A stretch of DNA of 61,075 nucleotides from a virus: positions 1-61,075 of the IMG/VR virus record IMGVR_UViG_3300010354_000093; one strand, written 5' to 3'. Both the position numbers and the translations under genes were made by a program. Below are positions 3,338-53,760 of the stretch, in pieces. The notes under the pieces are model-generated. The model did not search any database. It saw only the letters and a list, made by a program, of their open reading frames with translations, and was not told the origin of the DNA. Positions within the stretch are counted from its first letter, which is position 1. Each line of letters opens with the position of its first letter.

Positions 3338-3338
3338 T

Positions 3339-9380: not shown

Positions 9381-9406
9381 ATATACATATACAAAAGGAG
9401 CACCAG

Positions 9407-23915: not shown

Positions 23916-24524
23916 TTAAACTCCTGCCAAACCTGTTAAACTCTGTATTCTTACAGTATAATCAACTTGTATAAGTCTATTCAATGATTTTTGTACTGGA
24001 TGGAATATGACATGTGTTAAAAGTAAGCTGTTACCAGAAGAGCTATAGGATTTTAGCCCCAATTCATCAAAAACATAAGCACTTTCATTATTATTCGAAT
24101 TATCGTAAGCTAATTGGCCGTCAGGTTCACCGTAGTCTAATAGGCAACTCACAAATACATCTGTATAATTTGTTCCTGTAACATGTCGAGATTCGACGTA
24201 ATTTCTAGTTGGATCTATGTTGTTACTGGATCTATCATTAACAACTTTAGAGAATGTTTCATTATACAAGCTGGCATTTGCTCCAGAGCTATTTGGTGTT
24301 AAGTATGTGATAATTCCAGTGGGATCAACTGCTGTTCCGCCGTTGCCAAATGCCATTTCATAGATAAATCCTTGGCCGCTGTTACCAATACTCTCTGCAA
24401 GAGCAATGCTCATGTTTTCGTAATGAATAGCATTACGTTTATTAATGTAAATTTCTTTAGAGATAGGGTCGTATATCTTAATATGCCCTTCAATATGAAT
24501 TCCTGTAAGATCTTTGCTCTGCAT
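23916..24524 (-). CDS. virion structural protein
   Basis: A 202-residue beta-rich protein beginning with DLTGIHIEGHIKIYDPISKEIY and containing FIYEMAFGNGGTAVDPTGIITYL, a motif pattern of structural proteins beside fibres in aquatic T4-like phages. Its start follows the late promoter at 24545-24552. It probably belongs to the fibre attachment or adhesin set; exact role unknown. Confidence 0.72.
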   Translation of the reverse strand: MQSKDLTGIHIEGHIKIYDPISKEIYINKRNAIHYENMSIALAESIGNSGQGFIYEMAFGNGGTAVDPTGIITYLTPNSSGANASLYNETFSKVVNDRSSNNIDPTRNYVESRHVTGTNYTDVFVSCLLDYGEPDGQLAYDNSNNNESAYVFDELGLKSYSSSGNSLLLTHVIFHPVQKSLNRLIQVDYTVRIQSLTGLAGV

Positions 24525-26081: not shown

Positions 26082-26082
26082 A

Positions 26083-27293: not shown

Positions 27294-29981
27294 TTAATTT
27301 ACTAAAATATCTATATTAGGAGCCGGATATATTCCTAATCTTACATTCATAGTCAGTGCAAATGTTGTTGTCATGGTTATTGGTAACGACCCAGCATTAT
27401 TATTAACTGTAATTGTACCTGTTAACGGCACATTTAATGATGTTCTACTAAACGGATACACAGATCCGCCCGGACTTTGAAATGCCCATCTTGCATTTAC
27501 TCCTGTGTGTACATCGATCTGGTTACTAGTATTTTCATAAAATACTGCTTCGTACACCATGTTAGGATTTCCTAATGTGCCGGAGACAGAATTAGTTCCT
27601 TCCCATCTAATTCTAAAAGTTCTATTTGGTGCTACGCCTTCCTCACCGTAATATATTCGTTGACAACTATTATCATTTGCAGAAATCATTATCTTTGGAA
27701 TAGCAGGGTTAGAACTACTTAATTGAGAATAGTTCGATGAACCAGCACCAAATGTAATGTAAGTGTTTGTTCCTACATAAATTGTGTTGTATGTTTGATT
27801 TAAAAAACTAATGCTAAAAGGAAGTGGAACTGTCCAATACCCGTCATCAGAATTTCCTGTGAATGTTAAGCCAGCCGGGGCAGATGGCGTCGACGACAAC
27901 AAACTTGCTGGGCCAATAATCGAATTTGTAATACTAATTCTCGAGCCGGCAGTTGGAGTAGTAGTTGTAATCCTATTTCCAGTATTTGGGCGTGTGTCAA
28001 AGCTATCGGTATTAGTAACTCTTGTGTCAGTTGTATAGATTCCACTAAAACCAGATTCAACTAACACTGGAGATCCGCCTGCTCTAGGTTTAGCAGTAAT
28101 AATATAAGGAACAACTGTACCATTTGGTATATTTGCTGTTGATAAGTTTACTGTAACGGTCCCATTATTAATGACTGAACTTACATCAGAAGTTAAATTA
28201 AACGTTGCTTGATTATTATAGCTGTAGAGTGTTCTTTTTCGAGGAACAATTTGGCCAGACACTGGCCTATGTGCCGCAGTTATTTCTGGAAATGGAACTG
28301 TATGATAACCTCCTACATCAAGCGTTGGTACTCGTGTTCCGACTAATAGTAATACTTGTTTATTACTTGCTGGATTAAATGTTAATCCAGCATCTTTACT
28401 ATCCTGGGCGCCACCGTTTGAACTTTGTAAAGTTGGTGGACACATTGCTTTTAAATACTCTCGAGCTTCTTTTTGAGTCATTCTAGGATATTTTTCAGCT
28501 AAACATGCAAGAACACCAGTGGTTTGTGGACCACTCATGCTAGTACCTGGACATTTTTTAAAATTGTTATTAATTGTGTCTGTTCCAGCAAGTGATTCTA
28601 TTCTTGAATCCGGAGCTGCTATAGAGTCATATAATGTAGTGCCGGTACTCCATATACTTTGTATACCTGAACCTGGTGCCCAGCAATCAATTCGTGGGCC
28701 ATAGTTACTAAATTCTGCTTTAAAGTCTCCAGATTCAATACCAGTCGAACTATAAATGCTTGCTCCAGAAGTTTCATTGTGTTGCCCCATGGCGCCTGAA
28801 CAAATAATTTTAGTTTCTTCTGTGCCACCATCTGCGGCACCAGGACTACTGCCACGATGGATGTAATAAGTTGTGTTGTTGTAAATCATTGTGTTGTCGT
28901 AATCTAAGCCGCCAACTACATCTTCGTAAAAATAACTATTTCCAGCACTAGCAACAATGATAATTCCTTCTGCCATAGCATCGATCATATCGATATCAGT
29001 TCCAGTATCTCGAGTTGGAAACGCTCCGCCGATATTTAATCTAGCAATATTTTGCAGAACATTAGAGTCCCATACATAAGATCCGTTTGAGCCGCTAGTT
29101 GGAAAATAATCAACACCTCTTATAGTTAACTTTGAAATGGAAGCAGAGTTTAATGAGCCTCCCCTATAACCCCAACTGTTATTCATCACTGTAGGATTCT
29201 TAACACCAGTTAACGGATTAATTGGTTTGTTTTTATGGAACTCCCTGACATAATCGATACTATCATAAAATGTAATATTATAGATATTTGCATCTCTGGC
29301 CCAACCCTGAGTATTGCCTGCGGTTGTTCCTGATGTGTGTGCGCCATGTTGTTGCAATCGTTCGCCTGGATAGTCGTAATACCCTATTGCGCCGCCTGTA
29401 ACAACAGGATTATGAATAAACCAATTATACTCAACCATTCTGCTGTAACCGGTTCCGTTGGCATTTTGTGCATACTCATAGGTAGTTGGATACGGTGCAC
29501 CGTCATCCATAATAACAACATCAACATTTTTTCCTGAACAGTCAACCAACAATGAAGCTGCTTGTTGTACCGTACCGTCGATCCCCCAATTTGTAATATT
29601 AGATTTTTTTAAACATCTAACAAATCCCCAATTTATATCGCCTGCATCGCTTGCAACACGTTTATCAAAATTTGACGAAGTTTGATTGAAACCAAAAGTT
29701 CCTCTAATTAAACCTAAATCTCTATAATTTAATTCTACTGTTAATACACGAGGATCTTTTTTAATAAGAGCCGCCTCATCATAACTTAACATATAATGTG
29801 TGTTACGGCTGATAGGTCTTCTGTTGACGCATTCAACCATCCTGTCAGGAATATAAAGATTCCCTCCTGGATTTTCCATATCTTTATAAAAATCGTCAGC
29901 ATCGTCCATACTCTTAAGAGTTACAATATACTCTTTAAGGCTTTGATCTTCCGGATTACCTAAGTGTGGAATTGGATCCAT
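27294..29981 (-). CDS. large subtilisin-like protease with C-terminal beta domains, virion-associated candidate 1
   Basis: An 895-residue S8-family protein. An N-terminal propeptide-like domain (about 14-90, EYIVTLKSMDDADDFY) precedes the catalytic domain: D159 in VVIMDDGAP, H212 in QQHGAHTSGTTAG, IVASAGNSYF, and S481 in GTSMSGPQ. Residues about 550-895 are beta-sandwich type; one part (PFSISFLNQTYNTIYVGTNTY ending short of an IRWEG...YEAVFYENTS block) resembles nidogen-like domains of adhesins. It is about twice the length of its neighbour and lacks a signal peptide. Placed directly after a repeat fibre in the late transcript, it may be a particle-borne protease. Confidence 0.87.
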   Translation of the reverse strand: MDPIPHLGNPEDQSLKEYIVTLKSMDDADDFYKDMENPGGNLYIPDRMVECVNRRPISRNTHYMLSYDEAALIKKDPRVLTVELNYRDLGLIRGTFGFNQTSSNFDKRVASDAGDINWGFVRCLKKSNITNWGIDGTVQQAASLLVDCSGKNVDVVIMDDGAPYPTTYEYAQNANGTGYSRMVEYNWFIHNPVVTGGAIGYYDYPGERLQQHGAHTSGTTAGNTQGWARDANIYNITFYDSIDYVREFHKNKPINPLTGVKNPTVMNNSWGYRGGSLNSASISKLTIRGVDYFPTSGSNGSYVWDSNVLQNIARLNIGGAFPTRDTGTDIDMIDAMAEGIIIVASAGNSYFYEDVVGGLDYDNTMIYNNTTYYIHRGSSPGAADGGTEETKIICSGAMGQHNETSGASIYSSTGIESGDFKAEFSNYGPRIDCWAPGSGIQSIWSTGTTLYDSIAAPDSRIESLAGTDTINNNFKKCPGTSMSGPQTTGVLACLAEKYPRMTQKEAREYLKAMCPPTLQSSNGGAQDSKDAGLTFNPASNKQVLLLVGTRVPTLDVGGYHTVPFPEITAAHRPVSGQIVPRKRTLYSYNNQATFNLTSDVSSVINNGTVTVNLSTANIPNGTVVPYIITAKPRAGGSPVLVESGFSGIYTTDTRVTNTDSFDTRPNTGNRITTTTPTAGSRISITNSIIGPASLLSSTPSAPAGLTFTGNSDDGYWTVPLPFSISFLNQTYNTIYVGTNTYITFGAGSSNYSQLSSSNPAIPKIMISANDNSCQRIYYGEEGVAPNRTFRIRWEGTNSVSGTLGNPNMVYEAVFYENTSNQIDVHTGVNARWAFQSPGGSVYPFSRTSLNVPLTGTITVNNNAGSLPITMTTTFALTMNVRLGIYPAPNIDILVN

Positions 29982-29982
29982 G

Positions 29983-31251
29983 TTATACCTCTAATTGCAA
30001 CAATGTTAATGTAACAGTAATTGTTGTTGACGACCCGCTTTTATTAGTAACTGCAACCGGAATGCTAGTTGTCGGAGTTCCTTCGTTGTTAAATCCTAAA
30101 ACAGCTGGAGTAACCACTACTGTTTGACTTCCGGTTGTAATAAATTCTGCTAGAACACCGCTTCCAGGAGCAGGATCTGTTAAAATATCTCTACTAGCGT
30201 CTGATGTCCTTGACGCAACATCGCTATATAATCTTACCCAAGCCGCTGCACTTGTTTGAATTTTTAATACCATATAGGATTTAAATCCGGTAATAGTTAT
30301 ATTACCTGTTGCATTATTTGCAATACTTGAAGTAGTTGCCGAAGCCGTTGTTCTACTGTAGGCTCCACCGGTACCTGCGACAGCAGCAAAAGAAAATTGT
30401 CCTGCACCATTAGTTGTTAAGAATGTTCCAGGTAATCCGTCAGCAATACCTAAATTTAATATGCTAGTTGGAATAGTTGGTTTACCAGTTAAATCTTGAT
30501 ATAATCCCGAGACTGCTACAATAGAAAAAGCCGGTCTATTTTGTATTGCAGACCATTCAACAACACCAACACCAGTTGAACTAATTACTCCGTTTGCGTC
30601 AATAGTAATAGACGCTCCGTCAACTTTAATTCCGCCTAGTGTTCCGCCGCTGCCAGTACCTGCGGTTGGCAGGGTATATTGTGTTGGAATAGTAGGTTTG
30701 TTTGTTAAATCAGTATAGCTTCCACTAGTTGCCACAGTTGCAAACGTTGGTTTTCCTGAGATATTTGCCCAAGCTAGCGAAGTTAAAGTAATATACCCAG
30801 AGCCATTAATAAGCTGATTCGTGTTGTTAGGTATTGTTGGTTTGTTTGTTAAATCATTATAGCTACCGCTAAAAAGTACAGGCTTGTTTGTTAAATCATT
30901 ATAATTGCCGCTAAAAAATGTAGGCTTGTTACTTAAATCGTCGTAGCTACCGCTTGTTGCTACCAAGGATAAAGAAGGTGTGTTATCTAAATCAAAATAG
31001 CTGCCTGAAGCGGCTACATCTGACAATGTGGGTTTATTCGTTAAATCAGTATAGCTTCCACTAAACAAAACTGGTTTGTTCAATATTTCAGCAAGTCCAG
31101 ATGTGGCATTCCAATCAGCATTGACTTGACCAGTTTCCATAAACTGATATAACTCTGTGAAATTATCATTTATTTTTTGAGCACCAGATCTTAACGTATC
31201 GCCTGATCCGTCATTTGCTGTAACTCCTGCATTAATTACTTGTTGCGACAT
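29983..31251 (-). CDS. tail fibre-like protein with GSYxDLTNKP repeats
   Basis: I take the ATG at 31251 (AAGGA eight bases upstream, MSQQVINAGVTANDGSG) rather than a TTG six codons earlier inside the giant gene. The 422-residue protein starts with a fibre/baseplate-attachment motif (INAGVTANDGSGDTLRSGAQKINDNF) common at phage fibre N-termini. Seven copies of a SGSYxDLxNKP element follow, then a beta-rich tip. These repeats make a thin triple-stranded shaft. Placed between the giant protein and the first subtilase. Confidence 0.78.
   Translation of the reverse strand: MSQQVINAGVTANDGSGDTLRSGAQKINDNFTELYQFMETGQVNADWNATSGLAEILNKPVLFSGSYTDLTNKPTLSDVAASGSYFDLDNTPSLSLVATSGSYDDLSNKPTFFSGNYNDLTNKPVLFSGSYNDLTNKPTIPNNTNQLINGSGYITLTSLAWANISGKPTFATVATSGSYTDLTNKPTIPTQYTLPTAGTGSGGTLGGIKVDGASITIDANGVISSTGVGVVEWSAIQNRPAFSIVAVSGLYQDLTGKPTIPTSILNLGIADGLPGTFLTTNGAGQFSFAAVAGTGGAYSRTTASATTSSIANNATGNITITGFKSYMVLKIQTSAAAWVRLYSDVASRTSDASRDILTDPAPGSGVLAEFITTGSQTVVVTPAVLGFNNEGTPTTSIPVAVTNKSGSSTTITVTLTLLQLEV
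30460..31090 (-). repeat. SGSYxDLTNKP shaft repeats
   Basis: Seven irregularly spaced copies, visible on the plus strand as TTGTTTGTTAAATC followed by AGCTACC or AGCTTCC blocks. Coding repeat of a fibre shaft; the near-identical DNA copies make recombination-driven length change likely. Confidence 0.78.
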
Positions 31252-31255
31252 TTTT

Positions 31256-34200
31256 TTATCCTTGGTCAAATGTTATGTCATTGCTATCGAACGAGCCGGC
31301 ACTTGAGTCAAACGTTGAAACAGACTCAGCACTTTGATATTTATTGCTCTCTTGATACCAAATTCCCGGAACAGCTTTTAAGAAAGTTGCTACGCTATTG
31401 TTATCATATAATAAGTTTACTGTTGAATCCCAAATTATACCTTTCTTTCTAACTACAGTTATGTTAATACCGTAATCTAAAGGTGTTTTCAATGTAAGCA
31501 CATTAGTATTTCCATCAACTGTGAATTCAGCATCAAAGTCAATATCTCCTTCAGGACTATCTGGTGCTTGATTAACATTGTAAACTGTATAGTCCGACTT
31601 ACGTAATCTTAAATTACCTATAAAAAATTCCCAATTGGCAGAATCATTTATAAAATTATCTGTACTTGTATGATTAGTCACGCATCTATATGTGTAACTT
31701 CCAACAGTTACAATATTTCCTATAGAATAAGCTACACCTGAAGTCCAATTAGCACCAACATTGTACCCCCCAACAAAAACTTCGATAGAATCTTTTGCAA
31801 GAGTGATAGCATCTTCTGCTGTCATCGAGCTACCCTGATATGTATAAGATGTATCAAAGTTGCCAGGAACAAAGTTTAAATTAACAGTATTAGTACCATC
31901 AGAAATTAATTTTTGTATAATTTGTTCGTTAACATAAGGTATTGTTTCCGAAGGACCAATATCTTGAACAAAACTGTTAACTGGATGAACGTTAGGAGTA
32001 CCTGTTCCTAATGTTCCACGACGTAGTTGACTTAATACATTTCCATTTTTTTGGAAATACTCAATTCGTTCTCCGCGAATTTCGACAATACCTGGCTTGT
32101 TTGCAGACGGGTTAGGAGCGTCGAAATTTGATGCATCTTCAACTTCTATCGAAACATCATTGTACTTTAAAGGTGCTGTTAATTTTGTTTGCTTATACAA
32201 ACTTAATCTCTTGAAATGATCCCTATTCAACATATCCTTAAATTGCATATAAGCTATGCCTGGAGATAGTACATTACTTCCAAAAGTTATAACATTAACT
32301 TCTTGATTTAAAGGAACATAGTCAGTTAGTTTAACTGTAATTTTATCTTCTTTAACTACATAGTCAACGCTAGGAACAAGAAGTTTACCAGCCTGGATTA
32401 CCCACACATAATTCTCATCAATTACAGGATTTCTTAGAGTAATATAACCACCAGTTACACCAACATAACTATAATATTCAGTTGTATCAGGTGTTACAGA
32501 AACAGAAGCATCAACTGTTAAAACTGTTCTTTCAATATCTAAAATATCGTGTTTATAAGAGCTTATAATTTCTACAGTATCCAAATTTGAGTATGCCTGA
32601 GCAAAAGTTATCTGTGCTGGCGTTGCTCCTTGTGGAGGAGTATAAACATACTCGGCATTCTGCAATACATTAACAATTAATTTCTTTCCTTTATACTGAG
32701 CAGCAATACTAGGAGTTATTTTTATATTGATAACGCTTAAATCAATAATATAATCGTTACCTAATGTCAATAGTGTTCCGTCAGCATAAATTTTTAAATC
32801 TGTAATATCAATGCTATAAGGCGGCAATGTTACCGGATCTAAAGAATAGTTATACTTGTTTGCTTTAATCGTGAAGTATTGATTTGTTGGTCCTGTTAAG
32901 AAAGTTTGATTTGCCCTAACAAGAATGTTTGATTCAATTGGTAACGAATCGCCTATTATATTAGACAAGTTATAAGTTAATGAACCATTTGTAGCAACTT
33001 TTTCTGTTTTAGTAACTGCAAATGTTTGTTGATTACCTGCAACGATAGAATAAGTTATTATGCTTCCAGACAGCGGTGCTGCACCGAAACGAATACCTAC
33101 TCTATTTGGACTATCATACGTTTCGTCTGTTTTAAAGATTTGCCCGTTACAAGGTTCTCCATTTAAATATATCAAATAGGACATCTGGTCAAGCCACGGA
33201 GCTTTAGTAATAAATTCCTCTGTTGTACCATTGCCAATAAAATAATCAATATCTAAAATGTTCCCGCCGTTGAATCCAAAACTGTAAACAGAAACAATGC
33301 TCTTAGCAGCAGGTGCCGTTACAAAAGTGATCAAATTATTTTCATAATCAAATGTGTAATCAACTTCACTAGTTTTAACACTATGGACAGAATTTGATAT
33401 TACTTTAACTATAATAGCCTGTTTAGTATTAGGCCTTTGAGATAAAATAAACTCCTCAGTAACACCATTGGCAACAAAATTATCGACCCTCATTGTAGCA
33501 CTTGCTGAATAAGGTTTATCAAATACTTTAATTGAAACTGTGTCAAACAACTGACCCGGTACAACTTCTTCTGGGGCAGGGCTAGTAGTTGGAGTCACAA
33601 AGCCGTCGCCGTCAACAATAATATCTTCTGGTAACAGGCCCGTTGCGGTAGAATATGCAAAATTTCCGCCACTAAGAGCTGTATCATAATCTGATTCTTC
33701 TGGTTTTATAGATCCGTCACTTGTGTTCTTTCTAATAATAATTTGGTCGCCGTCGTTAATTGTATATGTCAACGGTATTGCAATGTCGTAAGCCGGTATT
33801 GTTGGATCAGAACTTATACCAGTCGACACAATAGTTTCCATTATTGCATTAGTGTTTGTTTGGCCTGGGGTATTGTAGTCAGGATCATCTAACCTTACAG
33901 GCTCTAACAACGAGTATACTTCAACCCAAGACTGATCTGGAGCAGGAACTGTAAGTACTGCTATATCAAATCCAGTTAAAGCAAAATCAACATTTTTAAC
34001 TAAATTACGAGTAAAGGTTAATGAGCTTGCCGGATCTATTGATCCGTATAAAATTTGATTTAACCTAACTTGTGTACTGCTAATGATTTGAGTAACTGAG
34101 GTGTTCAGCCCAAGTACACCATTAACTGTTGTTGTTACTATATCACCAATTGCAAGACCTGTTGTACTAGCTACAGTTAGAATATCAACACCTGGTTTAT

Positions 34201-37200
34201 TCAAAGTAAATTTTAATGCTGTTCCATTTGCTGGAGGTAGACTTGGGGCGGCACTTAGAATCAAAGTTGTTGAGTTGGAAACTGTGACAACTGTTTGTGT
34301 TGTAAACTCTGTGCCAACTACTAGCATGCCCGGAACGATTCCGGTAGTATTGGAAACCTTTAATGTTGTACCAAAACTTCCTGCCGATACATAATTTGCT
34401 ACTACTCCTCCAGAATTAACATATCTTTTTATTCTGACTTTTGGAGACACCATATTGGTATTATATGGATACTCGAGGTTAATGCCGTCTGATTGTAAGT
34501 CATTTATTTCTAGTTTTATATGATAAACATTAATTTCTGTTCCGGCAGGAGGAACATAATTCAGCGTCCACTCGTGATCACCTGAACCAGTAGTTACAAT
34601 AAAATCATCAAATGTTGGATCTGCACTATCCCATCTTTCGGTAAAGTACGGCACATTATCCCAACCTTGGCCAACATCAAAATCTAAGCCGTCTAGTACA
34701 ACGCCACCGTAATCTATCCCTGACATTAACTGAGATAAATCTTTACCAATTTGACCCGATGTTGGATTATAGTAAAACTGTACTCTGTCAGCTGCATTCA
34801 ATAATGACCAATCTTTTGTATAGGTTACAATAATAGTTGCGTTTCTAGCAGGTGCTTTTTCAAATATAATCGAACCGCTATAACTTGTGTAACCTTTTGA
34901 TACAGATTTAATAATAACAAGTTTATAATTATCTCGTAATTCTTCAACTCCATTTACTGTAACTGTTGATTTATTAACCCTTACATCAGGTCCCCATTTT
35001 AACGGAAATTGTAATCTACTGCCTGTACCGCTAAATGTTTCTGTTTCTTCTAATTGTGTAATAAAATAACTTTGTGTTATACGATCAAACTTCATTCGAA
35101 TAGTTTGAGATCTTGTCACGCCGCCGCCGATAATAGCCACAGCAGTTGCTTGCGTTCCGCCCTGTTCTACTCCGCCTTCTAACACCACTTGCGGTGCTGA
35201 CAAATAACCACTTCCAGAATCAAGTAAAACAATTCTATTCACTTTTCCATTAGCAATAAATGCCCTAGCAGTTGCTCCAGACCCAGAGCTACTAATAAAT
35301 CTTACTACCGGAGGAGAATAATATAATGCTCCGTTATCAACTATCTGAATAGAAACAACTTTGTAACTTGCATTATCTAACCAGTTTTTCCAAGGATAAT
35401 TATCAATAACAGTTGATGTACTGGTAATTTGATTATTTTGAACTGATGCATTTACAACAGAAACTTTTCCGTTTTGGTAGGCTGGTTGTAAGTCAAAGTC
35501 AGTTACTAGTAATTGAGCAGGATCTACTTTATTATAGGTGCTAATATATTCTCTTATCTTAGTTCTATAAGGCTTAACCTCAGAAACATACGATTCAAAG
35601 TCCGATAAATTATCGTTCTTATAATTTACTGGCTGATGTAATTCTCCTACGTTATGATTTGCTTTAACAAAACTTGTTTTAAAAATCCAATCAACATAAG
35701 TTTGTTCATTTAAAACATAACGAACTGTATTAAAGAAAGATCCAAGATATGCATATTCTAATGTGTCAATAAGAATATTGTTCTTTAGCGCAGTGAGTAT
35801 GTTCCTTAATTCTGTTGTTGCAGAATTGTCAAACGTTGCATTGTCATATAACGCCCCATCAAATCCATAATCTGTATTTTGGAAAAGATATAAACTAGAA
35901 CTTAATTGTATTGTTCCATTTTCTTGACCAACTACTTTATAAATCTGTGTCCAGTCGATACTTTCAACATCGGAATATTTTTCTAATAAGAACCAAGTTC
36001 CACTACTGCTTGTTCTAACTTTTACAGTTTGTCCTATTGCTGGATAGATGGAATTTAAATCTGAAAATGTGTCTACTGCAAAATTTATTGCAGTATAATC
36101 ACTATATCCAGTTGCATACCAGTCAACGTAATCCCAGTATTTTCTTGTGTCAAATGACTGACTACGAATTCTTGACCATACTTTGTTTACAGAATCATAG
36201 GAGTATATGCTCCAAGTTCCAGTAGCGGAAGTATCAGTATGTACAAGTGCTGCGTAACTTCTTACTGAAAAGACTGTATTTGTGTCGTAACCGTATCCTG
36301 GAGAGATAATTTTAATACCAGTTATTTGTCCTTTAGCATTAATCAGTGCTTTAATCGAAGCCCCAAATCCTGAACCAACAACATCAATAACCGGTGCTAT
36401 AACATACCCGCGGCCGGCGTCAACAACTGATGCACCGACTATTGATCCATTTTCGATTATTGGAACTAATGTTGGTAGCACAAAAGATCCAACGTTGGCA
36501 AAACGTAGTTCTAAGTCTGTATCTAATACAACATCATACAATCCTGTATTAACACTAGGTTCTTTTTCATATGACTCTAATAAACTAAAATCTCTCTGGC
36601 CAACTACTTGGGTAGTTATTAACACTCTGTTAACATACTCGATGTATTGTTTTAGAGCCTCGAGACGATTAATAAACATACCTTGTCTAGGTCTGTTTTC
36701 AATTCCATATAATAGTTTTGGTGGAAGTGCAGGATCAGGTACTACTCTACCTTGCTCGTCTTTTCCACAAAGACTGTCTATCCATTTCTGTTCAATAATT
36801 TTAGGAATTACTGTATCACTATTAGTGCTTACTAATCTCCACTGGCTATGAATATTTTTATTAGGAGGATCACTTACCCAATATTCAACAGACAATACAA
36901 CATCTCGATCTGCTAATAAATTACCAACATTAACTAGACTAAATGAATTTGAACTAGTAAGTGCTAGATATTTGTATGCCTGGCCCCTAGGATTTCCTAT
37001 TAAACTAGAAACATCTTGAGCAGATATATATCTACCAACAACATTTGGAGTTGTTTTCTTATTCTTGACCCAGTAATAATACGTGTACTTGTAAGACTTA
37101 GCAACCGAGTCCCAACGTTTTGAATAGCTGTATGTGTTATTTCCGTACAATGTCTGGCCGCTTATACCCGAGGCAAGTCCTTCTTCGGTGTCGGCCTTAG

Positions 37201-40200
37201 CGTTCCAATCTGCTGGTTTATATTTTGATTCGACCCATTCGTAGATATCTACGGTAGATCCTGGGAATAATGTATTCCACGTACTGTTTCGATAAACAGT
37301 TTCATTATCATTGCTATCAATAAACTTTGTTGTTCGTAGATCCCACCATAATGTTCCAACTTGCGAGCTACCCCATGCAAGGCCATCATCAATTTTTACA
37401 GAACTGTTGGGTGTTTCAGATATTGGAGTTGCATATATTGCCGGATCAAAATATGTTTTATAACGTATTTCTTGATCAGAAATTCCTGGAATTTTTCCTT
37501 GACTAGAATCTATTACATCTAAGTATGTAATAAATTTATTTGTACGCTTGTTATATAAAAAGACTGATTTAATCTTAGATAGATCAACTTTGTCAATTTC
37601 ATAATGATTCAATGTCCAACTGTAGTGACCTTGTTTTTTAATATAAGAATAAAGTTTTCCAGAAGTTTTACCGTTGACAACTGCATATGGGGCTCCAACT
37701 AATACATAATTGCCGCCAACCGTAATTGATGTTCCGTATCCTTCTAATATATCAGTGTCTGTTGCTAAACTTTCTCCAAATATCCACTTTTTGTTGTACC
37801 TATCAAAGATATCAATTCTGCCACTATCAACATTCTTTTCAAGATAAAATGTTGTTAAGGAGTCGTCAAATGTTGTGCCGTCATTTATATCCCAGCCAAC
37901 TCGACTATCTGCACTTGCACTATAAATTACAAGTGTTTTATCATTATTCATGAAAAATATCTTACTTCCAAACATTTCTCCTTGTTCAGAATTTAAAGAA
38001 GTTATTGTTTGACCAAGACTATTATCTAAAATATAGTTGCCAGCTTGATTCCGTTCGTAGACAACTACTTTGCCCTGATCTACTTTATCACCATCGTATA
38101 CAGTTGACGATATTGCAATATATGTTGCAGAGTCAGTAATAGCTATACTTTGACCAAATCTAGTGTCTGTTCCAGAAATTGTCTGTGCTAAAGTATACAC
38201 TCCAGAATTGTTCTGTTTATAAACATACACTGACCCGTTTCCACCAGAAGTAATAGCAGGAGCTGATACTACTAGTGTCGAGCTGTCTTTACTTACGACT
38301 ACCGAGTCACCAAACTGATTTCCGATAGCACCTGCTGTAAATCCAGTAAGGTTATCATAAGCCCACGATGTTAAGACAAAATTTAGTCTTCCAAATGGGT
38401 CGCCATCTGGCGGCGCACTTAGAACCAATGTGGTCGAGTTCACAACTGTTATAACTTGTTGGCCTTGTGTAAATCCAGTTCCAACTACAGTCATTCCTTC
38501 TTTTACACCGTCTGTTGTAGATACTTTAATTGTTGCGCCTGTACTGCCAACAGGATTATATAACGCACTAGTTTGAACACGTGAATCATAAATTAATTTG
38601 TAAACTTTACTAGAATTATCAGCAGTAGAAACAAATAATGTATTATCACCAAATGCAACCTTGTACCCAAATAGTTCATTGATGCTTTGTACAGGACTTA
38701 CAAAAGTTGTAAGATGAGAATATAGTCCTATGCTGTTCTTGAAATAAACTGAAACTGCACCTTGCTGTAAAGGCCCTGTATTAGTTGCACCGTTAACTGT
38801 TTCAATTAAATTATTTTCACTCCAGTAAGTCGGCGATGTAGCAGGCGGATGAGATCCCGAAAAACTTACAATTGCTTCATAAATTTTTGTACCATCTGTT
38901 ACTAAATCTCCAACTACATACGAACTAGCAGGGTTATACGTTCCTTTAAACTTGGTTGCAGCAAGTCCGGCGCGAGGATGTCCTACTGCTAACCAATATC
39001 CGTCAGGAGAAAATGCTGCTGATTCTGCAAACCACGAATCTTGATTTGGATTAACACCTAGTATATCATTTGCTACAACAGGGCGTAAAAATATTTGAAC
39101 TTTTGTCCAAGGTACTCCCGGAACTGGTTTAGAATAAATTGAAGGTTGGCCCGACGTGTCTGAAACAAACGCTACATTGCCGTCTAAATTCATTACGACT
39201 AGTCTGCCAAATAAGGCATCATCTTCTAATGGATTTGGCGGTATAGTATCTCCTGCAAATACAGGATTATATTTCCAAGTTCCCCATTTTCCGTCGCCTT
39301 TATCTTTAGTCCATAACAATTCGCCATTGACTCTATTATTCGATAGAACCGAGTCAACTAAATCAATAGACTCGGATAGTTGAGGCTTAAGAGCAAATAC
39401 AGGAACAGTTGTTCCAGCCTGGAATGGTGTCCATCCAGCAATAGTTGTATTAATTATAATTTTTTCTACAGATACTGAAGAGATTTTATAAAATCCCTTA
39501 AACCCAACAGTCTCGATGCCAATATATGAGTCTGGTTCCAGGGTAACCACAGAGTCTGTCTCTAGTGTAAGAACAGAATTACTATAAGTAGCATTAACAA
39601 TCTTGATATCAGTAGGTGTATATCTATAGACATTCCAACTTATACCTTCAAATCCTACCCATACATAAGACCCATTGTTATATTCATCGATATTTTCAAG
39701 TAATATCTTATCTAGAGATGTTAAAACAGTTTTAACTTCGTCTTGTCTAACAAACCCTGCTGAACGTAGATAATTCTTTTGTGATGTTTTTAAAGGCCAT
39801 GGATTACTATTGTAACCAAGCGGTTTTAAATATATGTCACTTTCAATTTGTCTTACAATAAAATCATTTAAATTTCTATCAACTGTTTTTACTAATTCAA
39901 ATCCTTGAGGATTATTTTTAAACAGAGATTCGTCAAGTAGAAATTCAATGTTTTCAAAGGCGGCATTGGCACCGTATTGTCCAACACGTACTGCCCATTC
40001 TTCGTAAAAGTCTAAGTTTTCTTTTCCGCTGGCACCGAAGACGTCGAATAATTTATCTAAGGAATTAACTGAACCTTTGTCTGCAATCATTCCCTGATAA
40101 AATTTAAATTCGCTAACATCGTCTTGAATAATGTTACTTAAATACTGTCTTTTTTGGTAACCAATTAGATGCTGTGCTACTTTTTGCTGACCAGAATCAA

Positions 40201-43200
40201 AATTATCACTATCAAGGCTGTAAAAATCAGTAAACTGTTCTGCTTTATAAGTCCAGTTTGGAAGTAATTGCGGAGTTGGTTTTTCTGATAACTTAATCCA
40301 GCTAGTTGGATTAAAATCAAGTGTGCCTTTTAGAGACGATGCAGCACTATAATAAAATTCTTTATATTTGGCAATGTCACCTAAGTTATAATCTGTCCAT
40401 GGTGTCCAGTCATTAATTGTCGCTTCGTCGTAAATAAAACCAGGAACATTAAACCCGCCGTTCCACTCAGAGCTTACATACCCAGAAACTTTAATTCTTT
40501 CTTGTCGATAACCACTTTCAAGATTATAAATTGTATCACCAAACATTGTTTGGTTGTTTAGTAAAACAATTTGCTCTTTTTGTACAAGATAAAAAACTGC
40601 TCCATAAATTCCGTCTTCGCTGCTTGGAGAATATGTCACAGCATTATCTTCTCGATAAGTTGAAAGGAATGAATCAACGATAGGCGACCCGTCAACTTTG
40701 TATATTTCATATCCGTTAAACTGACTTCTTATATCTTCTACTACACAATAAGGAGTTGAGAAAGTTAAAGATGTTGCAGACGGGCTAAGACTTATTACAC
40801 TACTACCAACTGTGCTTAAACCATCTAATTTAACAAAATCTTCTTCGTTAAAAATTGAAGATGCAAAAACCTTATACTTTGCTTGATAATAATCGCCGTT
40901 GTATTTTACAATCTCTTGATATTCAATATCTTGATCATCGCTCCAGTCTTTCCACTTATCTTGTCCTGAATTCCAATTTTGTGTTGTCCAGAATAAAAAC
41001 TCTTTTGCACTAGTTTGCCAGTTAGTTATAGTTCTTAAATTATTATTAAAGTCATCAAAAATAAAACCCTGATCTTTTAACCATTCACCATAGCCAACTA
41101 TAAAGTCATATGTGTCTTGAATTGTATCAAATTTAGTTCCGTACGGAACAATAATAGATTCTGTCCTATCCCATCGAATTCGTGTTGTTGCTTCTTTACC
41201 ACCTACAACTGGCAAAGAACCTAATGCTTGATAAAAATCTGAATTGAATTCCCCTTCGGCAGTATGATTTACCTTGACTCGATAAAATCTATTCTGATAA
41301 TTAACAACTTTGCCTGCAACATATGTCGATCCGGCTGTCCAAAAAGTGTAGCCTTCCGAAATTCCCCCAACATTAATGGTTGGGCCAGATTGTGTATAAG
41401 GATAATAGTAAAAATACGGTTGAGTTTTACTATATCCCTTAACTTCGTATCCGGTAGGCAATTTTGTAATTATTATACCGCTATAGACAATCTTTTTAAT
41501 TGGGCTGGAAGTATTTAAAATTATATTATAATCTTCTTGAGGTATAAAAACTCCTCCAGAGCTTAAAGGATTTTTACTATCTAAAATAAAATTAAATTTT
41601 TCTTTGCTAGTAAATCCGCCAAGACGTAAACTAATTTGTGCAGAAATATTTTTTAAATCGTATGTATACTGATCATAGGATCTTAGATAATCGCTTAAGA
41701 TATAATCAACAACATAGTTAATTAAACCAGATGTGTATACTCTTTTAGGACTTGAATAGATACTAGGGAGTACTAAATCACTTGGCGTAATTCTTAATTC
41801 TGTTTCTGTATATATTAACTGCCCAGCAATGTTTCTCTTAATTCTCGAACGATCGAGTAATGTTCCAAAAGACATCGCAGGATTTATTAAAATAGCAGTA
41901 ATTATAAAACTAAACGGATAATGACTACTTCTCCGCCAAGCGGCTTCTACTGGACTAACATCTCCGAATACAAAATCGCCGACAGTTGCTCTTGAAATTG
42001 TGCCTTCGACAATCTCTGTAGTATACGGACTTCTTAATTGGCCATACTGATCTACTGGTATATGATCTAGCAAGTAAGGTCTGACATATTGTTCAAGAAC
42101 TAATGATGGAGCATTTGGATCTCTTACCAAACCGGCCGCGAGATCTTCCCATAACACTAAATTATCGCTTGTATACGGCGCTGGGCCATATACAGTTTCC
42201 CACCATTCTGGTTGTAGAGTAAACCCTAACATTTCCCACGGGCATAGGTGGGGGCGGTCTGTACCTAGCATCCAACGGTATATGCCTCTCCAGTACCCTG
42301 GAACATTTCTTCCATCTAACGATACATAGTCGCCATAGTTCCAAGTAAAAGAATTGTCTTCGTCAAAGCTCAAGGGTTTTGAAAAATCTCTATTAACAAA
42401 CGATGTCCATTTAAAAAATTGAGGTGCAAAAATTTTATTAAATTCGTCTAACCCAATGCTTGAATTTTGATTATAAGCTGGCTCAATTTCTGTTACATCA
42501 AATAACTCTGGATTATATTTTATTTTAATATTATTAAAAATTCTTTTTTCTAATTCTAAAATAAGCTCGTCTCGATAATCTCCGTAAGCTAATACTTGAC
42601 TTCCGTCGTGGCCTTGTATCATTAGCCTTGGAGTTACTAAACTAGTATCTAGATAAATTTTAGGCTCGTAGGCTGGCCAAATACCTAACTTAGTAGGAGT
42701 AGACGGTATAAAACAACCATCAGTACTATCATACTCGTATATTGATATTTCATCATCGTTGGCCATTTCAGCCTTAATAACAATAAAACGTTGTTCGCTG
42801 TCAAAAGTATAATCTTTTCCGTAAATTAAATGGTTGCCATTTAAATAAACATATACTGCTTTATTTGATAAGGACTCTAGGTCAAACGAAGTTGACACAG
42901 GGTAAGTCTTTATCCTGTAATCAATTACCGGATATGTATTAACTACAGAAGCTGTGTAGCCGACCATGTCACTAAAATAGTAAGGGCCAGTTTTTGCTTT
43001 ATCTTTATTGATATGATTTAAAATTGCATTGACGTGCCCAACATAATCTGTGAGATTAGGATAATCTAACACCTCAATTACATTAATAAAATTGCGTTTA
43101 AATATTCCGTAGTCATCTCGAGATTTTTCAATACCTCGAATAATATTACTTGACTGGCTTGTAATGTGATATAAACTTAAACTTAACGGGCCTGCGTGTT

Positions 43201-45610
43201 GAACAAATTTTGTTCCGTACGGAGACACATTTCCTAAATCTCGAATATTGCTGGATCCTGGAAAAATTCCTTCAAAATTTTGAATATTATCTACAATCGA
43301 TCCAACATGGTCTATGACTTCTCCTAGGGTAAAGTCATTCATTGTTCCATTCAAAGGATTATTTTGTAAATTTATAGGAATTTCATAATGTCCGTTATTA
43401 TTAATTTCTTGCTTGGCAAATGCTCTGATAGTTAATATATCTGAGTCTTTAATATCCGATGTTAAAACAATTTTTTTATAATCTGGTGCATCAACAATAG
43501 ACCATTGACTAGGATCTAAACGAATTTTGTTTACATAAATTTTTACTACAAGATCATCGAGATTATTAACATCATCAAATATATCTAATTTGAAATTATT
43601 AACAAGACCAGAATCTTTATAAATTCTAACTGCGGCTTGGGTAGTTGTTAGTACCGATTTTTCCCAACCATTTAAATATACTTTCTCGCCTGTTAACGGT
43701 TTTGATTTAATCAAAAATCCTACATCACATTTTTTTTCAAATACAGATGCTAATTTTTTATACTGAAACGAATCTGTTAAAATATTAAAATTAAAAACAA
43801 TATCACCAACATTATTAATATTTTTATAAGAAAGTGCAAAACCAAGATTCGTATCAACAGTTCCAGTTCCTGTTTTATAAGAAAAAAGTTTAGTACCCTG
43901 AAAAGTTGTTCCTTCATATATGGACTCATTTGCAAAACTATTATAGTCTGCATCTACTAAATCAAATAGCGGAGGCTGATTTACAGAAATCTTTTGCTGG
44001 CTTTCTACCCATGTTGTACCGTTAAACCAAAATGTGACTCCGCCGTTGGCATTGCCATACTTGATAATAACAGTATCGTCAATTTCAGGTTCGTCTTCTA
44101 ATACAAGGTGTATTTGTCTGCTGCCGTCATTCAGATGAAGTACATCTAAAAAATCAACTCTAAAAATTTTATTTTTAACTAATACATCTGTATCGGCAGT
44201 AAACAAAATTCGCTGACCTTGAGACAAACTTACACCATCGATGTTATATCCAAAACTTCCTTCTATTGTTGAAAACACATCTTTAGTAAAGGTATCAATT
44301 AAATCAACATCAGGAATTGCACGAGTTCCAAAATTATACAATCTTAACCCTGCTTCAAATTCAATAATCGGTCTGACTGCCCTTTGATTTTGATTTAAAC
44401 TAGGAATTTTTCCGTTTATTTCGGCACTGGCATTGATAACATCTTTATGAACCCATCGATTATACCTACTCCAGGGATTCCTGTCTCGACTGGATCTATT
44501 TACAACATGATAATCAACTGAACTAGCCAACGATGTAGCATCGCTAAATGGCATTTCGTCAAATGGGGTTGTATCAAAAAGTACTGCTTCAGATGTTGTA
44601 TAAGCACTAATAAGCTCTAAATCATTTTTATTAATTAAAATAATCTCGCTTCCTACACCTTCGACATAAAACTGGCCGGTTGCATATTTTTCTGGTTCTA
44701 CTTTTCCAGTAAATGATACCAACATTCCGTTACTTAATTTTGTTCCTGATGGTAAAGTATATGTTTGTTTTCCGATAATTTCGTCATCAACATTGATATA
44801 AGTGTTATCTTCGATTGATAAAATATGTATTACTCCCCCAACATCAACGTTTGCTTCACTAACATAATATAATACATCAGGAGAATTGTAAGGAATAGTA
44901 ATAGTTAATGTACCATTTTCAATTGCAAATTGATCAAAGTCTATTGTCTGGTAACGGTCTTGAGCTCCAGCAGTTCTCAATGTTTTAATACTGAATGGTT
45001 GCCCAGGACAATTAATTTCAAAATTATAAGTTTGTCCTCTTAATAACGTTATTGTTGGGTTTCGCTCTAGGCCATTAGGAGTGAACAAATAGGTATAAGT
45101 GTTTAACTGATTTTCTAATGTTACATTATACGTACTATTAATTTCTAACTGCTGCCCAGCAATTTTAACTACATCAGGACCATTGGGTAGCCAATAATAA
45201 TTTTGAAAGTTTACAAATTTATCCCAGTCAATATGAGGATTCCACGAATAAAATTCTTCATTGTTAACTCGACTATGGTTTGAAATGTTTGCGCCAAATA
45301 CATTTAATTGATTAATATAATCTTGGTAGTCTTTAAAAAAGGTAGTATTATCTAGTTTATCTTTAATTGTAAAACCAGGCTCAAGCTGATAATTCTGCCT
45401 ATCGTTACTTACAGCAGAAATAAAAATGTCGTCACCAACAGTAGCTTTACTATTTTGTCTTCCAACAAAACCATTTACTTTTTTAACAGTTCCTGGTGTA
45501 ACTAGTTGATCAATTGTTGCTTGTAAAAACTTTTTATTTGGGTCTGATCTAAAGATTTTTGGAAGAAAATTGTAACTAGTAGTTGATTTAGAATTAACGT
45601 TATCAGCCAT
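31256..45610 (-). CDS. giant structural protein (4784 residues), baseplate/fibre type
   Basis: One uninterrupted reading frame of 14.4 kb, about 0.5 MDa, nearly a quarter of the window. It starts in an 8-base overlap with gp6, the place of the wedge genes 7-10 in T4, so it is likely a baseplate-proximal or long fibre component. The N-terminus (YNFLPKIFRSDPNKKFLQ) has a distinct alpha/beta domain. Recognisable later elements: repeated CBM5/12-like segments (Trp, GD/GKxV, YxA patterns near residues 1440, 1740, 2235 and 4640), FG-GAP-like beta-propeller repeats (about 2140-2660; FGDSVVVS, LVVSAP, LVGAP), GxGY-type strand repeats (about 3060 and 3430) and C-terminal Ig-like strands. No catalytic motif noticed. 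Confidence 0.85.
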   Translation of the reverse strand: MADNVNSKSTTSYNFLPKIFRSDPNKKFLQATIDQLVTPGTVKKVNGFVGRQNSKATVGDDIFISAVSNDRQNYQLEPGFTIKDKLDNTTFFKDYQDYINQLNVFGANISNHSRVNNEEFYSWNPHIDWDKFVNFQNYYWLPNGPDVVKIAGQQLEINSTYNVTLENQLNTYTYLFTPNGLERNPTITLLRGQTYNFEINCPGQPFSIKTLRTAGAQDRYQTIDFDQFAIENGTLTITIPYNSPDVLYYVSEANVDVGGVIHILSIEDNTYINVDDEIIGKQTYTLPSGTKLSNGMLVSFTGKVEPEKYATGQFYVEGVGSEIILINKNDLELISAYTTSEAVLFDTTPFDEMPFSDATSLASSVDYHVVNRSSRDRNPWSRYNRWVHKDVINASAEINGKIPSLNQNQRAVRPIIEFEAGLRLYNFGTRAIPDVDLIDTFTKDVFSTIEGSFGYNIDGVSLSQGQRILFTADTDVLVKNKIFRVDFLDVLHLNDGSRQIHLVLEDEPEIDDTVIIKYGNANGGVTFWFNGTTWVESQQKISVNQPPLFDLVDADYNSFANESIYEGTTFQGTKLFSYKTGTGTVDTNLGFALSYKNINNVGDIVFNFNILTDSFQYKKLASVFEKKCDVGFLIKSKPLTGEKVYLNGWEKSVLTTTQAAVRIYKDSGLVNNFKLDIFDDVNNLDDLVVKIYVNKIRLDPSQWSIVDAPDYKKIVLTSDIKDSDILTIRAFAKQEINNNGHYEIPINLQNNPLNGTMNDFTLGEVIDHVGSIVDNIQNFEGIFPGSSNIRDLGNVSPYGTKFVQHAGPLSLSLYHITSQSSNIIRGIEKSRDDYGIFKRNFINVIEVLDYPNLTDYVGHVNAILNHINKDKAKTGPYYFSDMVGYTASVVNTYPVIDYRIKTYPVSTSFDLESLSNKAVYVYLNGNHLIYGKDYTFDSEQRFIVIKAEMANDDEISIYEYDSTDGCFIPSTPTKLGIWPAYEPKIYLDTSLVTPRLMIQGHDGSQVLAYGDYRDELILELEKRIFNNIKIKYNPELFDVTEIEPAYNQNSSIGLDEFNKIFAPQFFKWTSFVNRDFSKPLSFDEDNSFTWNYGDYVSLDGRNVPGYWRGIYRWMLGTDRPHLCPWEMLGFTLQPEWWETVYGPAPYTSDNLVLWEDLAAGLVRDPNAPSLVLEQYVRPYLLDHIPVDQYGQLRSPYTTEIVEGTISRATVGDFVFGDVSPVEAAWRRSSHYPFSFIITAILINPAMSFGTLLDRSRIKRNIAGQLIYTETELRITPSDLVLPSIYSSPKRVYTSGLINYVVDYILSDYLRSYDQYTYDLKNISAQISLRLGGFTSKEKFNFILDSKNPLSSGGVFIPQEDYNIILNTSSPIKKIVYSGIIITKLPTGYEVKGYSKTQPYFYYYPYTQSGPTINVGGISEGYTFWTAGSTYVAGKVVNYQNRFYRVKVNHTAEGEFNSDFYQALGSLPVVGGKEATTRIRWDRTESIIVPYGTKFDTIQDTYDFIVGYGEWLKDQGFIFDDFNNNLRTITNWQTSAKEFLFWTTQNWNSGQDKWKDWSDDQDIEYQEIVKYNGDYYQAKYKVFASSIFNEEDFVKLDGLSTVGSSVISLSPSATSLTFSTPYCVVEDIRSQFNGYEIYKVDGSPIVDSFLSTYREDNAVTYSPSSEDGIYGAVFYLVQKEQIVLLNNQTMFGDTIYNLESGYRQERIKVSGYVSSEWNGGFNVPGFIYDEATINDWTPWTDYNLGDIAKYKEFYYSAASSLKGTLDFNPTSWIKLSEKPTPQLLPNWTYKAEQFTDFYSLDSDNFDSGQQKVAQHLIGYQKRQYLSNIIQDDVSEFKFYQGMIADKGSVNSLDKLFDVFGASGKENLDFYEEWAVRVGQYGANAAFENIEFLLDESLFKNNPQGFELVKTVDRNLNDFIVRQIESDIYLKPLGYNSNPWPLKTSQKNYLRSAGFVRQDEVKTVLTSLDKILLENIDEYNNGSYVWVGFEGISWNVYRYTPTDIKIVNATYSNSVLTLETDSVVTLEPDSYIGIETVGFKGFYKISSVSVEKIIINTTIAGWTPFQAGTTVPVFALKPQLSESIDLVDSVLSNNRVNGELLWTKDKGDGKWGTWKYNPVFAGDTIPPNPLEDDALFGRLVVMNLDGNVAFVSDTSGQPSIYSKPVPGVPWTKVQIFLRPVVANDILGVNPNQDSWFAESAAFSPDGYWLAVGHPRAGLAATKFKGTYNPASSYVVGDLVTDGTKIYEAIVSFSGSHPPATSPTYWSENNLIETVNGATNTGPLQQGAVSVYFKNSIGLYSHLTTFVSPVQSINELFGYKVAFGDNTLFVSTADNSSKVYKLIYDSRVQTSALYNPVGSTGATIKVSTTDGVKEGMTVVGTGFTQGQQVITVVNSTTLVLSAPPDGDPFGRLNFVLTSWAYDNLTGFTAGAIGNQFGDSVVVSKDSSTLVVSAPAITSGGNGSVYVYKQNNSGVYTLAQTISGTDTRFGQSIAITDSATYIAISSTVYDGDKVDQGKVVVYERNQAGNYILDNSLGQTITSLNSEQGEMFGSKIFFMNNDKTLVIYSASADSRVGWDINDGTTFDDSLTTFYLEKNVDSGRIDIFDRYNKKWIFGESLATDTDILEGYGTSITVGGNYVLVGAPYAVVNGKTSGKLYSYIKKQGHYSWTLNHYEIDKVDLSKIKSVFLYNKRTNKFITYLDVIDSSQGKIPGISDQEIRYKTYFDPAIYATPISETPNSSVKIDDGLAWGSSQVGTLWWDLRTTKFIDSNDNETVYRNSTWNTLFPGSTVDIYEWVESKYKPADWNAKADTEEGLASGISGQTLYGNNTYSYSKRWDSVAKSYKYTYYYWVKNKKTTPNVVGRYISAQDVSSLIGNPRGQAYKYLALTSSNSFSLVNVGNLLADRDVVLSVEYWVSDPPNKNIHSQWRLVSTNSDTVIPKIIEQKWIDSLCGKDEQGRVVPDPALPPKLLYGIENRPRQGMFINRLEALKQYIEYVNRVLITTQVVGQRDFSLLESYEKEPSVNTGLYDVVLDTDLELRFANVGSFVLPTLVPIIENGSIVGASVVDAGRGYVIAPVIDVVGSGFGASIKALINAKGQITGIKIISPGYGYDTNTVFSVRSYAALVHTDTSATGTWSIYSYDSVNKVWSRIRSQSFDTRKYWDYVDWYATGYSDYTAINFAVDTFSDLNSIYPAIGQTVKVRTSSSGTWFLLEKYSDVESIDWTQIYKVVGQENGTIQLSSSLYLFQNTDYGFDGALYDNATFDNSATTELRNILTALKNNILIDTLEYAYLGSFFNTVRYVLNEQTYVDWIFKTSFVKANHNVGELHQPVNYKNDNLSDFESYVSEVKPYRTKIREYISTYNKVDPAQLLVTDFDLQPAYQNGKVSVVNASVQNNQITSTSTVIDNYPWKNWLDNASYKVVSIQIVDNGALYYSPPVVRFISSSGSGATARAFIANGKVNRIVLLDSGSGYLSAPQVVLEGGVEQGGTQATAVAIIGGGVTRSQTIRMKFDRITQSYFITQLEETETFSGTGSRLQFPLKWGPDVRVNKSTVTVNGVEELRDNYKLVIIKSVSKGYTSYSGSIIFEKAPARNATIIVTYTKDWSLLNAADRVQFYYNPTSGQIGKDLSQLMSGIDYGGVVLDGLDFDVGQGWDNVPYFTERWDSADPTFDDFIVTTGSGDHEWTLNYVPPAGTEINVYHIKLEINDLQSDGINLEYPYNTNMVSPKVRIKRYVNSGGVVANYVSAGSFGTTLKVSNTTGIVPGMLVVGTEFTTQTVVTVSNSTTLILSAAPSLPPANGTALKFTLNKPGVDILTVASTTGLAIGDIVTTTVNGVLGLNTSVTQIISSTQVRLNQILYGSIDPASSLTFTRNLVKNVDFALTGFDIAVLTVPAPDQSWVEVYSLLEPVRLDDPDYNTPGQTNTNAIMETIVSTGISSDPTIPAYDIAIPLTYTINDGDQIIIRKNTSDGSIKPEESDYDTALSGGNFAYSTATGLLPEDIIVDGDGFVTPTTSPAPEEVVPGQLFDTVSIKVFDKPYSASATMRVDNFVANGVTEEFILSQRPNTKQAIIVKVISNSVHSVKTSEVDYTFDYENNLITFVTAPAAKSIVSVYSFGFNGGNILDIDYFIGNGTTEEFITKAPWLDQMSYLIYLNGEPCNGQIFKTDETYDSPNRVGIRFGAAPLSGSIITYSIVAGNQQTFAVTKTEKVATNGSLTYNLSNIIGDSLPIESNILVRANQTFLTGPTNQYFTIKANKYNYSLDPVTLPPYSIDITDLKIYADGTLLTLGNDYIIDLSVINIKITPSIAAQYKGKKLIVNVLQNAEYVYTPPQGATPAQITFAQAYSNLDTVEIISSYKHDILDIERTVLTVDASVSVTPDTTEYYSYVGVTGGYITLRNPVIDENYVWVIQAGKLLVPSVDYVVKEDKITVKLTDYVPLNQEVNVITFGSNVLSPGIAYMQFKDMLNRDHFKRLSLYKQTKLTAPLKYNDVSIEVEDASNFDAPNPSANKPGIVEIRGERIEYFQKNGNVLSQLRRGTLGTGTPNVHPVNSFVQDIGPSETIPYVNEQIIQKLISDGTNTVNLNFVPGNFDTSYTYQGSSMTAEDAITLAKDSIEVFVGGYNVGANWTSGVAYSIGNIVTVGSYTYRCVTNHTSTDNFINDSANWEFFIGNLRLRKSDYTVYNVNQAPDSPEGDIDFDAEFTVDGNTNVLTLKTPLDYGINITVVRKKGIIWDSTVNLLYDNNSVATFLKAVPGIWYQESNKYQSAESVSTFDSSAGSFDSNDITFDQG

Positions 45611-49135: not shown

Positions 49136-49573
49136 TTATCGCAATAACAATCCGTTCTGTTGATCAAATCTTAATTCTAATGCTTGCTGAATGTTATAAG
49201 GGCGATATTCTAGTAAACATTGTATTTGTATTCCAGACTCGTATGCAGTGACAATCACTTCTTTGGCATTAATTCTTGGATCATAATTTATAATTTTATT
49301 CACATTTTCTGTAATAATAAATTTTATTTCTTCTGTCAAAGGCTCAAATAACAAATCCCAAATAACAGTCCCAAATCCTGGATTCATCAACCTCTCGCCT
49401 TGGCGAGTACTAAAATGATTAATCAAATCTTGTTTAATTAATGCAAAGTCAAAGAGACCAAAGTTTTCAGAATCAGGGCTAATTGTACTAAAACCCTTAT
49501 ACATTTTAGGAGTAAGGGTATCGTTAGATTGTTTGCCCTTTAATACTACTCTATCATAAAGTCTTGCGCTCAT
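49136..49573 (-). CDS. 25: baseplate wedge subunit gp25
   Basis: A 145-residue homologue of T4 gp25 (132 residues), which links wedge proteins to the sheath initiation ring. The conserved core NHFSTRQGERLMNPGFGT and VIWDLLFEPLTEE carries the EPR-like/gp25-lysozyme-superfamily fold without catalytic residues. Starts in an ATGA overlap with gp5. Confidence 0.94.
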   Translation of the reverse strand: MSARLYDRVVLKGKQSNDTLTPKMYKGFSTISPDSENFGLFDFALIKQDLINHFSTRQGERLMNPGFGTVIWDLLFEPLTEEIKFIITENVNKIINYDPRINAKEVIVTAYESGIQIQCLLEYRPYNIQQALELRFDQQNGLLLR

Positions 49574-53460: not shown

Positions 53461-53760
53461 TTAAATACCTAATATTGTTTTAAGACTGCTACTTTTAGGA
53501 ATATAGATCTGAACTCCTGCAACAAAATCATATATTGGATCTTGTAATACATCTAAATTTCGTTGCATAAACACCCACCAAAGACCTGGCTCGCCGTATA
53601 AATCATACGCAAGTATGTCGGGACGATATTCGTAAGAAGTTGTAATAGTCCAATAAATGTCATCAGGGTCGGCTGAAACTGGTCGTATGGTTAAAATATC
53701 GAGATAGTCCTCACGAACTTCGGTGTTTGCCCAAGGACTAATATTACTATAGTTGGCCAT
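53461..53760 (-). CDS. 53: baseplate wedge subunit gp53-like
   Basis: Ninety-nine residues, about half of T4 gp53 (196), matching its conserved N-terminal part: SPWANTEVREDYLDIL, EYRPDILAYDLYGEPGLWWVFMQRN, DPIYDFVAG and IYIPKSSSL (LysM-like). The rest of T4 gp53 is missing, so this is a minimal version. Three-base spacing from both neighbours. Confidence 0.88.
   Translation of the reverse strand: MANYSNISPWANTEVREDYLDILTIRPVSADPDDIYWTITTSYEYRPDILAYDLYGEPGLWWVFMQRNLDVLQDPIYDFVAGVQIYIPKSSSLKTILGI

Follow-up and report, generated by a model that had tools for sequence, protein, structure and literature searches.

A Giant Protein Encoded Directly After gp6 in a Viral Tail Operon as a Probable gp7/gpI-Class Baseplate Wedge Protein

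We analyzed a 61 kb viral record from IMG/VR (the whole stretch, hereafter 'the window'), a piece of a jumbo phage, and suggest that a giant protein encoded on its minus strand is probably a baseplate wedge protein of the class represented by gp7 in T4 and gpI in P2, with a core that is split in two. This reading is favored by the position of the gene, its coupled overlap with a gp6-like gene, ordered and invariant motifs, and weak structural matches. Homology to gp7/gpI is probable but short of proof, since fold scores are weak and curated models are unmatched, and the case for formal homology is weaker than the case for a protein that works like a gp7 arm. By its sequence, the protein belongs to an already known, functionally unlabelled family of giant virion proteins.

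The Giant Gene and Its Operon

The giant gene (Table 1) starts with an ATG that has an SD-like GGAG just ahead of it and contains zero internal stops, which bears out the original prediction of a single intact frame of ~14.4 kb encoding 4784 residues (~0.5 MDa; calculated mass 533.2 kDa, pI 4.75). By simple arithmetic, the probability of 4784 stop-free codons arising by chance is ~(61/64)^4784, or ~1e-100. The existence of 76 full-length homologs in one frame, together with sequence blocks conserved in jumbo phages, indicates that this is a real gene. Its start overlaps the end of the gp6-like gene by 8 nt.

Matches to PHROGs reveal a minus-strand gene order of gp53-like, virion protein, gp5-like, gp25-like, gp6-like, and giant. 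On the other side of the giant gene lie a gene for a gp9/gp10 N-terminal domain protein, connector-like and subtilase genes, and a phrog_11259 gene, downstream of which collar/fiber-type genes are located. In 22 of 47 loci, the gp9/10-domain gene, sometimes accompanied by subtilase genes, separates the giant gene from the phrog_11259 gene in the manner of a cassette; in loci that do not encode this cassette, the phrog_11259 gene usually follows the giant gene directly. The two subtilase-family (S8) proteins of the tail operon adjoin connector-like genes, and the family motifs were identified in at least the second of them.

SbcCD-type genes are encoded on the plus strand past 54.8 kb; likewise, the same operon in PA5oct and RaK2 is flanked by genes for a late sigma factor and a recombination endonuclease. 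Elsewhere, the window encodes tryptophan-halogenase-like proteins (1599-3047 and 4357-5547, both +), a radical SAM protein (751-1611, +), and a MoxR-like AAA ATPase (8247-9335, +) that adjoins a DUF2201 metallopeptidase/VWA-like protein (9371-10591, +). A run of minus-strand genes spans 13042-17652, and none of the five of these that were scanned matched a PHROG.

Table 1. Positions of the tail operon genes in the window and of regions within the giant protein.
Feature	Residues	Position (nt)	Strand	Basis or remark
Virion protein		53762-54763	-	Without assignment
gp53-like protein, PHROG 'baseplate wedge subunit'		53461-53760	-	phrog_7145, phrog_232
Virion protein		51142-53457	-	PHROG matches
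gp5-like hub/spike protein		49570-51138	-	Profile matches
gp25-like sheath-initiator/wedge subunit		49136-49573	-	phrog_261, phrog_43
gp6-like baseplate wedge protein, 1161 aa		45603-49088	-	phrog_10646, phrog_219
Giant virion protein in wedge position (4784 aa, 533 kDa)	1-4784	31256-45610	-	PHROG 10938
Conserved N-terminal region	1-150	45161-45610	-	In all members
Cupredoxin fold	152-270	44801-45157	-	Copper ligands absent; not in RaK2-type members
Conserved beta-rich arm with CBM5/12-like modules	300-1780	40271-44713	-
Proposed gpI/gp7-like core, first half	1781-1920	39851-40270	-	Helix-KG(S/T)-helix
Variable insert	2130-2700	37511-39223	-	FG-GAP/integrin-alpha-like beta-propeller and CBM-like module
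Proposed core, second half	3271-3400	35411-35800	-	VDWIFKTSF strand, helix, K-P
Variable C-terminal arm	3621-4784	31259-34750	-	Small beta domains; single CBM-like module
Protein with T4 gp9/gp10 N-terminal domain		29983-31269	-	T4_gp9_10_N above cut-off
Subtilase		27294-29981	-	S8 family
Second connector-like gene		26083-27279	-	Downstream of giant
Second subtilase		24576-26189	-	S8 family; HGTHCAG and GTSMASP motifs
phrog_11259 protein		23916-24524	-	PHROG match

Distribution of the Family and Association with Virions

The giant protein matched the profile of PHROG 10938 ('virion structural protein') in five stretches with a score of 1015 bits, and its membership in this family is established by that profile over the conserved blocks. 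Proteins of PHROG 10938 carry only hypothetical or structural annotation, and PHROGs places the family in the category 'head and packaging', though the gene sits in a baseplate operon. In the literature outside of subscription papers, we found no assignment of function for PHROG 10938, and an earlier one is possible; a cryo-EM paper on phiKp24 (PMC9700779) does not describe a protein of this family.

A tblastn search identified homologs in ~60 isolated phages, nearly all with records of 285-490 kb (jumbo myophages). Named orthologs are PA5oct gp355, RaK2 ORF070, 121Q_582, CBB_236, Atu_ph07 gp180, SCTP-2_140, and Phosso 294. Those in the isolate records inspected are 3322-4555 aa in length and follow a gp6-like gene, SCTP-2 aside, where the upstream gene is a 9.3 kb frame without assignment. 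Among IMG/VR viral contigs, at least 590 homologous stretches were detected; the 76 full-length members have lengths of 3331-5461 aa (median, 4735), and nearly all members retain the giant as one frame. In one relative (L041:9992-24885), the match to the giant protein extends past an ORF of just 2697 aa, indicating that this frame is interrupted, through either an error of assembly or a mutation. A gp6 gene is immediately upstream in 126 of the 130 loci with enough upstream sequence. This position, together with the mass spectrometric detection of orthologs in virions described below, supports the prediction of a baseplate-wedge protein directly after gp6.

A nucleotide search of the giant gene against phages returned zero matches, and the RaK2, PA5oct, and SCTP-2 proteins, when used as queries, matched few or no viral contigs. 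Matches to cyanophages were rejected as orthologs because they cover only a small GSGA-type repeat (~3050-3120) that is common to many proteins; the conserved ends of the giant protein, when used as queries, matched jumbo phages only.

Mass spectrometry of purified virions detected CBB_236 with 21 peptides (PMC5259590), and phAPEC6 gp245 (381.88 kDa) was likewise detected in virions with 17 peptides (PMC7247149). The latter is considered an ortholog on the basis of gene order and of its mass identity with 121Q_582 (calculated mass, 381.87 kDa). The record for PA5oct gp355 carries a note stating ESI-MS/MS. Peptide coverage of the orthologs in virion mass spectrometry is low (7-8%). Collectively, these observations support, through orthologs, an association of the giant protein with the virion.

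Domain Composition

Blocks comprising residues 1-150 plus 300-1950, and residues 2700-3600, are conserved across the family, even in jumbo phage members at ~30% identity, whereas residues 1951-2700 and 3600-4784 differ among members in both sequence and length. Residues 152-270 matched a cupredoxin (2dv6_A; Z 11.0, 99 aligned residues, rmsd 2.6). A search of this region for the copper-ligand residues (Cys..His..Met) revealed that they are absent, and it was therefore rejected as a copper protein despite the match in fold. The rows listed by the fold search with the N-terminal tile were taken up by cupredoxins aligned to residues 152-270, and they say little about the rest of that tile; a PDB search with the N-terminal profile returned nothing.

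One CBM5/12 module (residues 1424-1453) scored above the Pfam cut-off, and further CBM5/12-like modules were recognized by pattern only at about 1735-1775, near 2222, and near 4622. FG-GAP repeats exceeded their curated cut-off (23.7 vs. 23 bits), with a further score of 30.6. A search of the PDB with the core profile returned mainly integrin propellers (3v4p_A, E 1.6e-8), and a PDB sequence search with the single giant protein returned weak CBM matches only. The receptor-binding modules of the original prediction thus stand as possible sugar-binding or surface modules; judged by domain type, the propeller and CBM modules may bind receptors.

Relationship to gp7 and gpI

In T4, P2, and A-1(L), the slot directly after gp6/J is occupied by gp7/I, and the giant gene occupies this same slot in a W-J-I (25-6-7) order. 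K-G-(T/S) at residue 1845 and K-P at residue 3346 are the motifs that vary least across the family. K-G (1845-1846) is invariant in 124 of 124 members, all of which have T or S at the next position; the P of K-P (3346-3347) is invariant in 123 of 123, and its K is present in 97% (123-124 members). Profile alignment of gpI proteins reveals a helix-KGT-helix unit and, later, a strand-helix-K(P/N)-strand unit. Corresponding motifs are KG81/KP140 in P2, KG108/SP178 in A-1(L), and KG738/HP884 in T4 gp7, in which Pfam domain V (766-861) sits between the two. The giant protein has helix-KG(T/S)-helix followed by strand-helix-(K/H/S)P-strand, in that order, albeit with weak profile alignment scores, and the secondary structure predicted at both of its motifs in an AF2 core model is of the same type as in gpI.

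Because viral-contig relatives of P2 gpI are near-identical and of no use as a profile, 13 diverse gpI proteins were fetched, yielding a gpI profile of 14 members. When sliding tiles were aligned to the gpI family with hhalign, the tiles of both core halves ranked third to sixth of 62 and their alignments were collinear. The best-ranking tile was a non-core, tryptophan-rich stretch (1126-1275), and the gpI sequence test is therefore suggestive only.

The compact core of RaK2 was modeled with AF2 (mean pLDDT 60), and the prediction places helix-KG-helix-strand and strand-helix-KP-strand elements together, such that the two halves meet. A Foldseek search of the PDB with this model returned nothing below E 0.1. 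The top three VIA rows include the A-1(L) 'wedge protein gp32' (8kea_c; Z 6.2, 153/190) and a P1 baseplate chain (9ay5_a; Z 5.2, 162/204); further down is a 1031-residue chain (9f4a_A0; Z 3.9, 92 aligned) from an entry that holds gp7. These weak alignments involve both termini of the modeled core and omit roughly 800 residues in between, and VIA scores of Z 4-6 fall within the range of chance and would not be decisive alone.

The giant protein had zero matches over the curated cut-offs of Pfam Tail_P2_I, Gp7_5th, and Gp7_6th, and consequently we do not file it under these families; T4 gp7 itself is also unmatched by Tail_P2_I. The records of eight complete relatives likewise contained no gpI or gp7 homolog over cut-off.

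Alternative Explanations

The lack of a match to curated gpI/gp7 models and the weak fold scores would also be consistent with the giant protein being a peripheral baseplate or tail-fiber scaffold that is non-homologous to gp7. The actual gp7/gpI would then be encoded elsewhere, for example, by one of the two neighboring virion protein genes that are without assignment (51142-53457 or 53762-54763). We regard this as unlikely, however, given that the slot after gp6/J, which belongs to gp7/I in known systems, is kept by the giant gene in nearly all loci, and that the hallmark motifs, both of them invariant, align collinearly.

The original prediction held that the protein replaces genes 7-10 as a wedge fused to a long tail fiber, and its great length, post-gp6 position, and carbohydrate-binding modules are compatible with this. 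Nine tiles of the giant protein were aligned by hhalign with T4 gp6-gp12 and wac, and no tile matched (best E 0.07), and this holds for the gp7, gp8, and gp10 named as search targets in the original prediction; no tile resembles gp8-gp12 or wac. The positive controls worked, in that the gp6-like family profile recovered T4 gp6 (E 1.2e-4) and the product of 29983-31269 recovered T4 gp10 (88.9%, E 2.4e-6). Since T4 gp10 was recovered from this separate downstream gene and not from the giant protein, the replacement fails for gene 10. With the gp9/10 function encoded apart rather than inside the giant protein, the latter would fill only the gp7 slot and perhaps that of gp8, and a replacement of genes 7-10 was too broad a claim. 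No evidence for a trimeric long fiber was found in the giant protein, and collar-domain genes lie downstream, which makes the fusion highly improbable. We assign an equally low likelihood to a polyprotein whose processing, perhaps by the subtilase-like proteins encoded downstream, would release several virion proteins. Two subtilase genes are located 3' of the giant gene, at least one with HGTHCAG and GTSMASP motifs, and the sparse peptide coverage of orthologs is compatible with processing. Yet subtilase genes adjoin the giant gene in only 10 of 47 loci, and the protein stays a single frame in nearly all members.

Proposed Architecture and Comparison with Known Systems

The universal wedge of contractile tails comprises one sheath initiator (gp25/W), two copies of gp6/J, and one gp7/I. 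We propose that the giant protein would be the third member of this wedge. Its core halves (~1781-1920 and 3271-3400) would fold together, and the intervening 1,350-1,500 or so residues, including the beta-propeller, would loop out in a manner akin to domain V of T4 gp7. Residues 1-1780 and 3400-4784 would form arms of cupredoxin-like, CBM5/12-like, and small beta domains. Six copies may link the ring of gp6 with the periphery and bear the gp10-like and collar/fiber proteins, which have genes of their own; in addition, they may make weak contacts with sugars on the cell surface. More tentatively, and with somewhat less than even confidence, we suggest that a gpI of ~180 aa gained an insert within its fold as well as extensions and so became a one-chain baseplate arm of 0.5 MDa, such that six wedges carry a built-in ring of propellers and sugar-binding domains that touches the cell without dedicated fibers, and that this is general to the RaK2 lineage.

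PHROG 10938 proteins are the largest encoded in the baseplate operons of these jumbo phages and are abundant in environmental viral contigs. If true, their placement with gp7/gpI would complete a minimal W-J-I wedge for the RaK2 lineage and correct the PHROGs label, and it predicts that two motifs 1,500 residues apart meet in one domain.

Compared with its PHROG 10938 orthologs, the giant protein shares homologous conserved blocks and a place after gp6, and the orthologs occur in virions; it is longer than the named RaK2-lineage orthologs, with which it shares about 25-30% identity. Its cupredoxin-fold domain and propeller region are missing from, or reduced in, RaK2-type members. It resembles T4 gp7 in following gp6 and in its proposed core, where a KG motif is separated by an inserted domain from a P motif further on, but T4 gp7 comprises 1032 aa with 146 residues between the motifs, as compared with 1501 in the giant protein, and the two have no detectable sequence match. 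With P2 gpI, A-1(L) gp32, and pyocin Tri2, it shares the W-J-I order and the KG and (K/S)P motifs, and A-1(L) gp32 is the best, if weak, structural match to the RaK2 core model. The 8 nt overlap between the gp6-like and giant genes equals that of P2 J and I. In contrast, proteins of the Tail_P2_I class comprise about 180-200 aa and have neither the arms nor the insert of the giant protein.
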